From: Siphonodentalium dalli
Lineage: Eukaryota > Mollusca > Scaphopoda > Gadilida > Siphonodentaliidae
DNA length: 64,000 bases
NCBI GenBank assembly: GCA_032622095.1
Contig: CP136066.1
Span: 206,666,978 to 206,730,977, forward strand
Direction: 5' to 3'
The notes beneath the pieces were generated by a model. The model was not told where the DNA came from. It did no database searches and saw only the letters and a program-made list of their open reading frames with translations. The number at the start of each line of letters is the position of its first letter. Position 1 is the first letter of the stretch. Position numbers and translations under genes: made by a program. Positions 41,235-45,100 of this stretch are shown here, piece after piece.

Positions 41235-41322
41235 TGCAGGATGATCGGGACCGAGAGTTTTCTCCCTTATATCGAGAGCATCATTTAGAAGATTAGCAGC
41301 TTCTTTGTACTTCCCTTGATCT
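41235..41322 (-). CDS. KLC: KLC exon 6b, alternative TPR2 helix B exon (distal)
   Basis: The second 88-bp version of the TPR2 helix B exon, 3.7 kb downstream of 6a (acceptor AATTTCAG, donor GCA|GTGAGT). It reads [20 protein letters not shown] and KTLGPDHPA, which is closer to vertebrate and fly KLC than 6a is. By my alignment, 24 of 29 whole residues match 6a. Same phases (2 to 0) and intact splice sites argue against a pseudo-exon. The interval between the pair contains two palindromic MITEs (42860-43070, 44234-44446) and other inserts. Confidence 0.93.
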
Positions 41323-41358
41323 CTGAAATTGTTAGTTGGACAAACGATGGAGAACAGG

Positions 41359-41436
41359 TTCATGAAAGGAATGCCCGGAGTTATCTTCCTTGATAAATGC
41401 ATGAAAGGAATGCCCGGAGTTATCTTCCTTGATAAA
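41359..41436 (+). repeat. 39-bp tandem duplicate
   Basis: CATGAAAGGAATGCCCGGAG followed by TTATCTTCCTTGATAAATG occurs twice back to back, about 37 bp upstream (transcript sense) of the KLC exon 6b acceptor. Confidence 0.7.
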
Positions 41437-42256
41437 TGCTGTTGAACATTTTCATGAAGCTTCATCAGAAATATGTAGAGAGAATATAAAGAGAGTAATC
41501 AATTGGTTTCGATGTTTACGTGACATAATTCACGAGGGGAGTGGGGCATAGTAAAATCCGAGTGACTCCAGCACGTCCAACTGCCCAAGTGAATTGTGTC
41601 ACGTAATCATCAAAACAAACTGATTATTATATTTATTACACACTTTCTATCATGATAATTTGTTAATTATGTAAATAATATGTAACAAAATAGTCCCTGA
41701 TCAGCAGATCAATCGCGTTGAACCCCAACATTCAGTTGCGTGGATGAAAACATCATTTAAATATTTATGATGTAACAATTCTGCTTGACACCATTTTTTA
41801 ACATTGGAATCTGACTGTAAATATAGTCATTCTGGAACTCCAAATTCCCCACTCCCATTGAGAATTTAAAGTTGAAAGCGGTCTATTTGGATGCAGAAGA
41901 TATTCAAATTAATTTACCGAGAAAGAATTATAAATCACCTACAGGTGTGTAATAAATTTTGATTATGCAGATTTTAAGGAAAACTTTCGTGTCAACTTAA
42001 AAAAAAATTTGCAAAAAATAAAACCATCAAATTGTGTATATTATCTGATAAAGAGAGTCATGATAATGTTCAGCAGTATTCTGGTGTAAATAACCTGCCA
42101 ACCCACCCACTGATACAACCTCGTTTTAATTCTAAATACCAATGGTAAATTGCCGAATATTTATCACAGTGTTTAGTGACTTTGAATATATGGTATATTT
42201 CCATATTTACTGCTGGCTCGGTCCATATAATTTCATGACTCTTACTCTATGTTGTC
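41437..42256. other. Intronic stretch between KLC exons 6a and 6b
   Basis: AT-rich. TTTACGTGACATAATTCACG near 41515 and GAATTGTGTCACGTAATCAT near 41591 form an inverted pair about 70 bp apart; otherwise nothing. Confidence 0.45.
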
Positions 42257-42655
42257 CAAGATTTGAAATAGTGTACCTGTCATTTGCAGAATGAGATCCA
42301 CAGAGGGTGAATTTAGTGATGCAACCCAGCACAGTGGACTAACATCACTAAATTAACCCTCTGGGGACCTCACTCTACTTAGGCCTCATCTTCTGGGAAG
42401 TATCAATAGTCTCAAAATGACATAATTTTTAGTTACTTTTTCCCTTCTGTTCAGTTTCTTTATCCCATAATTTGCAGAACATAAAATGCATAATCGAGGT
42501 GACTAATGGGTAAACATCACCAACTTCAACTGGTGATTTTTAATCTGACCCCAGGTCTCCCATGACAGTTGAGGCCTCTAAGCAGAATGAGGTTCCCAGA
42601 GGGTGAATTTGGTGATGCTAGCCACTGTGCTGGATATATGTTTTTCATGGCTTGT
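42257..42655. mobile_element. Hairpin MITE, right part decayed
   Basis: Left CCAAGATTTGAAATAGTG with AGAATGAGATCCACAGAGGG; the second hairpin is incomplete. Shares the GACTAATGGGTAAACATCAC interior module. Confidence 0.45.
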
Positions 42656-42859
42656 CCCTTTGCCTTCCAAAAAATACCAAAAGTTTGAATTGGAAGGAAT
42701 AACTGTTTATTAGTTGATTTGATGTAAACCATAATTTATGCCTACATTACGTTTCGGACACGCAGAAACAACTTACACAATTTCAACAGTAGGAAACACA
42801 TCTACCACACATATAATGACAGAGAATCTGAGGATATTTTGGTTTTTATGGTTAATGTA

Positions 42860-43070
42860 CAGTAATGCCCTAAATAATCGACTCCTTAACCACAACAGAA
42901 TTATGGGTAACTTTTCAGAATTTAGTCGGAAATATCGCTTGTTGCCATTAATCGGAAAGCTCAGTGAGAGCTTTCCGATGAATGGCAACAAGTCATATTT
43001 CCGACTAAATCCTAAAAAATTGCCCATAATTCTGCTGTGGTTAAGGAGTCGATTATTTAGGGCATTACTG
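42860..43070. mobile_element. Palindromic CAGTAATGC MITE, copy 7
   Basis: TA-flanked, centre CTCAGTGAG. It lies in the interval between the alternative KLC exons 6a and 6b. Confidence 0.8.
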
Positions 43071-43258
43071 TACATCTATATGCTAATCGAGGTTATATAG
43101 GTTTTAAAGGTCACTGTACATCTATATGCTAATCAAGGTCATATCAGTGGGAGGGCCAACATAAACCTTGCCATTAGTGAGTGAGGAGATAGCTGGTTTG
43201 GCTGCAGGAATATATTTGTCATTGAGGTGCGTGGTATCAAATAAAAAGATGTCGTATC

Positions 43259-43796
43259 TAAGGCTGCAACGATGTCGAGGGTTCACAATACAATGTGCAT
43301 CACGATTTTTCCCCCACGATGCAATACACATCGCGATGAAAACGTAAATTGATGAACCTGATAATTGTTACTCCAGAATAATAAATGGTTGACAGCTCTA
43401 CACAGTAAATATGTGTTCCTTGAATGATGGACAGCTCTACACAGTAAATATGTGTTCCTTGAAGCTAATTTTTCTATATCTATTTGTTACTTAATATAGT
43501 GTATACATTTTTTTTTACACGTAAAATATATGCATTTCCGCCCCCATAGTTATTAATATAGTCTATATAGTAACTATAGTGATGGAAATGATTATGTTTT
43601 CTGATTTTTCCAACAAATGTGATAAATAGGAAGCTGCTGCTGCTATTCAAAACGTGAATAATGATGCATCGTGGGAAACATCCTGATGATTCAATGCAGA
43701 GAAAGAATCATGATGCATCGTCGGTAACATCCTGACGATTCAATGCAGAGAAAGAATTGCGATGCATTGAAATTGTGATGCATCGTTGCAGCCCTA
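43259..43796. mobile_element. hAT-type MITE, TAGGGCTGCAACGAT family
   Basis: Ends TAAGGCTGCAACGATG and GCATCGTTGCAGCCCTA, flanks GTCGTATC / GTCATATC (7 of 8). It contains a 57-bp class direct repeat near 43380-43460 (GACAGCTCTACACAGTAAAT twice). It lies in the intron between alternative exons 6a and 6b. Confidence 0.65.
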
Positions 43797-43829
43797 GTCA
43801 TATCAGCAGCACAGAGGAAATTGCAAGTT

Positions 43830-44485
43830 AAAGGCCCACTTAATTTTCATATGCCAAGATCACATTATATACACCATATTCCATATTATATACCTATCTG
43901 GAAGAGGAACCAAAAATTTATAAATCTACCAGAACACGGAACAGCAGTAGCCTAGGAGTGTCCATAAATGTGAAAGAAATTCTCAAATTCACACCAAGTC
44001 TTCCCCCGTTATTTACCCAGAATGCAGCATAATTCACAACTAAGAGATAGAGTTATTCCCCTTCCATTGAGAATAATAGACTGCAGTACAGACCAGATCA
44101 AAATTAAGCACATAACACATGTCGGTTTGATAAAAACAACATGTTCACAGTTTATTCGACCGGATAAGTTGATAAGTACAATGTTTTGGAACTTCCTCTT
44201 TCAAATGGAAAATAATATGGAATATGTTGTATACAGTAATGCTCTAAGTAATCGACTTCTTAACCAAAGCAGAATTATGGGTAACTTTTCAGGATTTAGT
44301 TGGAAATATGGCTTGTTGCCATTCATCGGAAAGCTCTCGGGGAGAGCTTTCCGATGAATGGCAACAAGCCATATTTCCAACTAAATCCTGAAAAGTTACC
44401 CATAATTCTGCTGTGGTTAAGAATTCGATTACTTAGAGCATTACTGTATGTTTTATCTTGGGATTCGAAAATAATGTGGGCCTTT
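43830..44485. mobile_element. AAAGGCCCAC element with nested palindromic MITE
   Basis: Left AAAGGCCCACTTAATTTTCA, right ATAATGTGGGCCTTTAA. Split by the TA-flanked palindromic MITE 44234-44446 and abutted at its final TTAA by a piggyBac-type MITE. Confidence 0.55.
44234..44446. mobile_element. Palindromic CAGTAATGC MITE, copy 8
   Basis: TA-flanked, centre CTCTCGGGGAGAG. Both arms share private changes (TTGGAAATATG / CATATTTCCAA). Nested in the inverted-repeat element 43830-44485, between exons 6a and 6b. Confidence 0.8.
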
Positions 44486-44487
44486 AA

Positions 44488-44720
44488 CACTTCCATAACT
44501 GGAGCTTCCTTAAATGTTCTTATATATGCGAGTCTCCCATAGGGCGCTTCACATATATACGAGAATACATTGGCCTAACAATATCTACCTTGACCTTGTA
44601 AGCCAGTGCATTATTTTACTTATGCCAGGCTCCCTATGGCAGATTCGCATATATAAGTGAATGCACTGGCACAGGGTCTTTAATGCTGCACCAGCGCAGC
44701 TCCCATCATGAAAAGGGTAA
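44488..44720 (-). mobile_element. piggyBac-type MITE, CATGA subfamily, inverted
   Basis: Preceded by TTAA (44484-44487) at the very end of the inverted-repeat element 43830-44485. The right end CATCATGAAAAGGGTAA has lost part of its TTAA. Confidence 0.55.
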
Positions 44721-45012
44721 GTATCTTCTGCAACCAATGGAGTGAACTTTGATGATGGCAAGTTGATTCCCTAATACAGTAAAATATCAAGACATTTCTT
44801 GTCGTTTCAGCATGAAAATTTGAAATCGGCTATCATTGCGCTCAAAACAAACATAGAAGTACTAGATTTCATGTGTCAATTAGCCAACATCATTATGAAT
44901 TAGTGGGAAATTTTACTGGGGACTCCCTGCCACCAAACAATGACAAATTTTTCCAAGAAGCTTTCACCGGTTTGTTAGTCAGCGAAGCTTCCAGTGTGAT
45001 TCACTGACTTAC

Positions 45013-45100
45013 GGCTGGGTTGTCCTTCCCTAACGTTTTCTCTCGGATGTGCAGAGCATCTAACAATAAGTTGCCTGCCTCCTTATATTTGCCCTGATCT
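45013..45100 (-). CDS. KLC: KLC exon 6a, alternative TPR2 helix B exon (proximal)
   Basis: An 88-bp exon (acceptor GTTTTCAG, donor GCC|GTAAGT), entered at phase 2 and left at phase 0. It encodes [20 protein letters not shown] and [12 protein letters not shown]2 helix B and the linker to TPR3. Exon 6b has the same length, phases and domain position, so inclusion of both would shift the frame. Compared with 6b and with known KLCs (LLNDAL), this version has Leu for the Asn, His for Asp/Ala/Ser after DAL, and DNP for DHP. Synonymous positions differ widely from 6b, so the duplication is old and both copies have been kept by selection. Confidence 0.92.

Follow-up and report, generated by a model that had tools for sequence, protein, structure and literature searches.

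Two exon pairs in a kinesin light chain gene

The analysed window is a stretch of 64,000 nucleotides (nt) from the genome of the scaphopod Siphonodentalium dalli (contig CP136066.1, positions 206,666,978 to 206,730,977). A kinesin light chain (KLC) gene lies on its minus strand and runs down from about 52.9 kb of the window; all exons given below are on this strand. The TPR region as spliced (292 amino acids, 6b/9a form) matched residues 1-291 of KLC1 in PDB entry 3nf1 with an E value of 5.3e-175. Within this region two exons of the gene, 6 and 9, are each present in two copies, and the sequence points with considerable confidence to a mutually exclusive choice between the copies.

Exon 5 (46896-47124) codes for TPR1 and helix A of TPR2 and is followed in order by exons 6a (45013-45100), 6b (41235-41322) and 7 (34412-34513), the last of which codes for TPR3. 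Exons 6a and 6b are 88 nt long, enter in phase 2, leave in phase 0 and code for helix B of TPR2 and the following turn; a gap of 3690 nt separates them. Exon 5 ends inside the codon of the Arg that matches KLC1 Arg266. Its last two bases are completed by the first base of either 6a or 6b, after which each copy supplies 29 whole codons and passes to exon 7 in phase 0. The splice contexts were ...ggttttcag before and gtaagt after 6a, and ...aatttcag before and gtgagt after 6b. Both spliced translations, 5-6a-7 and 5-6b-7, were open. Inclusion of both copies (5-6a-6b-7) produced a stop after residue 296, and skipping of both (5-7) a stop after residue 258. The original prediction had described two 88-nt exons of which, by the reading frame, exactly one must be chosen; its coordinates, phases and counts were confirmed by the splice sites and spliced translations, and the frame rule was borne out by the two stops. 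The copies of pair 6 lie next to each other, are homologous, match in length and phase and have GT-AG sites, and their joint inclusion or skipping breaks the frame, a frequent but not universal trait of exclusive exon clusters. In DNA searches of the whole genome 6a and 6b had one match each, namely the exon itself.

A second pair, absent from the original prediction, was found in TPR4. Exon 8 (29720-29803), which codes for helix A of TPR4, is followed by exons 9a (26079-26168) and 9b (22188-22277) and by exon 10 (18185-18284), which codes for TPR5. Exon 9a is 90 nt long, has phase 0 at both ends and extends from helix B of TPR4 to helix A of TPR5; 9b, the second copy, has the same length and phases and lies 3801 nt further on. 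The peptides of pair 9 were identical at 24 of 30 residues and the nucleotides at 65 of 90. These exons too are neighbouring and homologous, with the same length, phase and GT-AG sites, but joint inclusion does not break the frame, which stays open with both, either or neither copy. Since both or neither would disturb the pattern of 42-residue repeats, exclusive use of 9a and 9b is likely. The open frame of every combination of these 90-nt, phase 0/0 exons would also allow both copies to be joined, giving a TPR domain 30 residues longer, or both to be skipped. Such use is rather unlikely, as the insertion is shorter than a whole 42-residue KLC repeat and skipping would remove helix B of TPR4 and helix A of TPR5, and either change would be expected to harm the fold.

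With a single choice per pair, all four spliced frames of the gene were open (488 residues), so that two by two choices could give four possible TPR domains from one gene. The peptides of exons 2-12, including both copies of 6 and 9 (13 peptides), were compared with the six frames of the window by ungapped sliding, and no further near-identical exon copies beyond 6 and 9 were present among the best seven places for each.

Divergence and splice sites of the paired exons

Exons 6a and 6b were identical at 24 of 29 residues and at 52 of 87 nt. By simple count the synonymous measure pS was 1.30, with synonymous sites beyond saturation, and its nonsynonymous counterpart pN was 0.15. In a neutral simulation of the same 35 changes (5000 runs) the mean identity was 8.9 of 29 residues and the maximum 15, and 17% of the runs were free of stops. 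As the 24 residues were kept despite saturated synonymous sites and lie above all neutral runs, the duplication of pair 6 must be old and both copies must have been kept as protein-coding. This upheld the earlier proposal of an old tandem duplication kept by selection, and the sequence supports purifying selection on both 6a and 6b at the protein level. For pair 9, with a pS of 0.84 and a pN of 0.14, the neutral simulation (5000 runs) gave a mean identity of 13.7 and a maximum of 19 of 30 residues; from these sequences 9a and 9b are likewise both under purifying selection. Identities to vertebrate KLC1, taken from the letters of the 3nf1 match, were 23/29 for 6a, 25/29 for 6b, 27/30 for 9a and 25/30 for 9b. 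Decay of one copy was rejected in view of the conservation of the protein.

At the residues shared by 6a and 6b the same codon was used at 5 of 24, against 9.7 expected from the codon usage of the gene itself (P about 0.03, uncorrected), a difference on which no claim is based; for pair 9 the count was 10 against 10.1 expected. Four comparisons of 300 nt, including the flanks of 6a and 6b, showed no intron similarity left over from the duplications above that of shuffled sequences.

The 17-nt acceptor stretches of the four paired exons contained 10, 10, 11 and 12 pyrimidines, and those of nine other exons 11-14. Exons 6a and 6b, with 10 of 17 each, had the fewest among the 13 exons scored. Their donors, scored with a position matrix, reached 6.0 (6a) and 6.8 (6b), in the middle of the range of the 13 exons (3.2-11.1). 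Acceptors this poor in pyrimidines, next to donors of middling score, would be compatible with one copy of pair 6 being a relic that is no longer spliced. We regard this as very improbable, since both copies have intact GT-AG sites, are free of stops and are conserved at the protein level.

The acceptor region of 6a (19 nt) is repeated 49 nt upstream with 95% identity, forming a tandem 3' splice-site sequence at 45101-45168 on the minus strand; use of the outer copy would shift the frame. Together with the early stops caused by inclusion of both 6a and 6b or of neither, this second way of breaking the frame is what a poison exon might show, where one exon of pair 6 makes the protein and KLC output falls when the second is co-included or both are left out. 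Conservation of the peptide would be unnecessary in a poison exon, however, and the KLC peptide was kept in both 6a and 6b despite saturated synonymous change, which makes this explanation improbable.

Several ways in which the choice could be made were considered. Exclusivity by steric clash was ruled out by the intron lengths between the copies (3690 and 3801 nt). With regard to a mismatch of U2-type and U12-type sites, the sites were GT-AG. With regard to competing RNA structures, in which selector sequences would pair with a shared docking site, long inverted repeats were abundant in the introns of the two pairs (123 and 105 pairs), and among the 25 longest of each, which were inspected, those examined resembled dispersed elements. 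One inverted pair (42257-42322 and 45273-45338; 66 nt, 86%) encloses 6a and could loop it out. It appears to be a dispersed repeat, because 11 copies of a 13-mer from one arm were counted over both strands of the window, and no argument is based on it. Seven splicing-factor motifs were counted in the 300-nt flanks of eight exons, and no pattern was visible by eye.

Other repeats were observed in the same introns. Some 40 bp upstream of exon 6b, at 41361-41438, is a perfect 39-bp tandem duplication. Two palindromes, each about 220 bp long, were found at 44231-44449 and 42855-43075, with arms of 108 nt that are 98% and 93% complementary, respectively. Stretches resembling them recur in the window, and the palindromes are perhaps copies of a small transposon.

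Variable residues and the cargo groove

The numbering of KLC1 was set by R266, N301, N343 and N386 (PMC6214655) and agrees with Ile209 as position 2 of TPR1 (PMC5642895). In this numbering 6a and 6b differ at 275 (G/A), 279 (L/N), 283 (H/D), 291 (K/P) and 293 (N/H). The first three positions lie in helix B, TPR2 ends with 291, and 293 falls on position 2 of TPR3. Exons 9a and 9b differ at 360 (E/K), 363 (K/S), 367 (E/H), 370 (E/Q), 371 (T/K) and 375 (P/T). Of the 11 positions that vary in pairs 6 and 9, eight lie in helix B and three (291, 293 and 375) in turns. In a TPR domain the A helices line the groove and the B helices form the convex face (PMC5642895).

The contacts of W-acidic peptides were taken from PMC6224480 and shifted from KLC2 to KLC1 numbering by +15. 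Listed contacts that fall within the exon slots are 278 and 285 (W-acidic, exon 6) and 386 (Y-acidic, exon 9), and at all three the copies agree. The W-acidic contacts that could be listed from PMC6224480 and the Y-acidic contacts that could be listed from PMC6214655 include none of the 11 variable positions. On an ideal helix the variable helix positions of pair 6 lie about 70-150 degrees from the stripe formed by 278 and 285, and the eight variable helix B positions of both pairs 70-170 degrees from the groove-facing stripe; such angles are meaningless for the turn positions 291, 293 and 375. The original prediction had placed the differences of pair 6 next to the cargo groove. This did not hold for most of them, given the absence of variable residues from the listed contacts and the location of 8 of 11 on the convex-side helix B, but it stands for 293, because position 2 of TPR3 is placed at the groove edge by PMC5642895. 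The differences of pair 6 are better described, from the sequence and the published register, as probably lying on the outer face of helix B and the following turn, with 293 as the one exception.

The exclusive exons might nevertheless serve, as first proposed, to alter the range of cargo peptides accepted by the TPR groove. Cargo choice differs between KLC1 and KLC2 through two residues (PMC6214655), two W-acidic contacts lie in exon 6, one of them (278) next to variable position 279, and changes of the outer face could alter groove closure. The location of 293 at the groove edge in the register of PMC5642895 led us to rate this explanation slightly higher than before. Against it, all three listed contacts are the same between the copies, and in an ideal helix the variable positions of the helix face away from the stripe that lines the groove; we consider a groove function possible but unlikely.

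Under mutually exclusive use, the splicing machinery would take 6a or 6b at exon 6. Transcripts with both or neither copy would, as read from the sequence, end early and then presumably be degraded, so that decay, owing to the frame rule, would remove wrongly spliced products of pair 6. At exon 9 either 9a or 9b would most likely be taken, unforced by the frame. The up to four resulting TPR domains would keep the listed peptide-groove contacts constant and vary mainly the outer side of helix B in TPR2 and TPR4 and the turns that follow. Exon choice could in this way retune how the TPR domain interacts through its convex face and edge, for example when it docks on the heavy chain in the autoinhibited motor, or alternatively how it interacts with partners outside the groove, and the choice would presumably depend on tissue or stage. 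That it retunes the outer face or autoinhibition is a plausible but rather uncertain proposal. In autoinhibited kinesin-1, as seen in a structure of 2026, the heavy-chain coiled coils are bound by one TPR domain at the edge that its inter-repeat turns form, and helices of TPR2-5 in the second TPR domain hold a motor head (PMC13371920). A 2026 eLife paper instead has TPR1 docked end-on on coiled coil 1 (PMC13078783), and the exact docking surface is thus debated. A nanobody in crystals of KLC1 binds the outer surface through residues of TPR4 helix B and TPR5 (PMC6214655).

A search for heavy-chain genes with motor-domain letters gave 22 matches at E <= 1e-6, and those on C2 near 189.2 Mb were interpreted as belonging to the heavy-chain gene. 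Two matches that overlapped in the query proved to be neighbouring exons and not a duplicate.

Several points weigh against exclusive choice and a role of the outer face. Exclusive use is itself predicted from DNA, and the donor of 9b had the lowest score of the 13 exons (3.2), so that 9b may be weak. Published contact lists, the geometry of an ideal helix and general TPR architecture are the basis for placing the differences on the convex face; the groove stripe of TPR4 (362, 369) was carried over from TPR2 by the repeat register rather than taken from a contact list. Besides position 293 at the groove edge, some residues of second helices make secondary contacts with a Y-acidic peptide, and the hinge for groove closure extends up to residue 358 (PMC6214655). 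Residue 358 is the first of exon 9, which therefore adjoins this hinge, and a change of the outer face could still affect groove closure indirectly. No duplicated exon was found in the 18.0 kb of the heavy-chain gene scanned, which covered the motor region only. The equivalent positions that vary in both repeats (279, 283 and 291) did not overlap significantly between the pairs (P = 0.10), and convergence of the two pairs is not claimed. His occupies the second of these positions in both 6a and 9b.

If both exon slots are exchangeable, the gene would offer naturally swapped variants of the convex face in TPR2 and TPR4, away from the peptides in the groove. This region is involved in the structure of the autoinhibited motor (PMC13371920), and the swaps would permit a direct test of a control of autoinhibition by the convex face.

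Comparison with known systems and the remainder of the gene

Cargo choice and release by kinesin-1 are generally attributed to the paralogues of KLC, to cargo peptides and to splice forms of the C-terminal part. In vertebrates and the sea urchin the splice variants of KLC are located in the C-terminal part. Squid KLC isoforms were reportedly described by Beushausen and others in 1993 and could represent something similar, which is the main risk to the novelty of the present arrangement. Like the KLC genes of squid, sea urchin and vertebrates (KLC1), the gene described here is predicted to have splice isoforms. Among the papers listed by a full-text literature search, in which most subscription papers were outside reach, none described tandem or mutually exclusive exons within a KLC TPR domain.

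Among human mutually exclusive tandem exons, the exon length is not a multiple of three in 377 clusters (60%; PMC5740500, PMC9741552), and reads joining the exons were seen for 22% of these (PMC5740500). Because such joining reads exist in human, some reads joining 6a to 6b would be compatible with an exclusive choice. The human events are mostly called ancient, with one homologous region exchanged (PMC5740500, PMC9741552). The KLC pairs resemble the human sets in that they are neighbouring homologous exons of equal length and phase flanked by GT-AG sites, with a length not divisible by three in pair 6. Unlike the human sets, they form two clusters inside one repeat domain and are predicted from sequence. 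The words KLC and kinesin do not occur in the main texts of PMC5740500 and PMC9741552.

As with the vertebrate paralogues KLC1-KLC4, diversity would be located in the TPR domain of the same subunit; in place of gene copies there would be one gene with exon choice. In the repeat register of PMC5642895, four differences between 6a and 6b fall among the 42 positions of TPR2 and one in TPR3, and six between 9a and 9b fall among the 42 positions of TPR4. For KLC1 and KLC2 the identity is 97.6% in TPR2 and 85.7% in TPR4 (PMC5642895), which corresponds to one and six differences, respectively. It is a tentative and rather doubtful suggestion that two independent exon choices within one invertebrate KLC gene take the place of the four KLC genes of vertebrates, producing four TPR domains with one common groove and a differing outer face and edge, and that splicing would set the tightness of autoinhibition by cell type.

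This gene was the only KLC gene found in the genome of 2.23 Gb. A search of its nine contigs with the spliced TPR query, which included exon 13 and in which the best candidates alone were scored, gave 20 matches at E <= 1. Eleven of them were exons in the window, with 62-100% identity; the other nine, outside the window, had 23-56% identity and were taken for other TPR proteins. A search for the mollusc hemocyanin domain PF14830 gave no match, but it gave none in any of 14 control genomes either and is thus uninformative.

Coding exons were mapped at 12 positions (exons 2 to 13), and the introns that separate them have GT at the start and AG at the end. Exons 2, from the presumed start codon (52695-52913), and 3 (49447-49683) code for the N-terminal coiled-coil region, and exon 4 (48170-48257) for a linker with an LGFP-acidic stretch. 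The N-terminal region of 196 amino acids encoded by exons 2-4 and the start of 5 matched residues 6-180 of KLC1 in 9pmb_C with an E value of 6.1e-60. Compared with LDDLFPNDEDDP in KLC1, the linker of exon 4 reads LDLGFPDDDDDP, with F, P and the acidic stretch present and G in place of L. Its motif consists of LGFP followed by five Asp, and the KLC1 counterpart is DLFPNDEDD. Downstream of exon 10 are exons 11 (16411-16460), 12 (15146-15213) and 13 (14190-14298), the last of which codes for TPR6.

Beyond exon 13 a candidate C-terminal exon was noticed: on the minus strand at about 4950-5247 an open stretch beginning ALDMVKQTKIVDVLTSD resembles, by eye, the C-terminal exon of KLC. At about 2394-2870, also on the minus strand, an open frame of 159 residues contains approximately four copies of one repeat.

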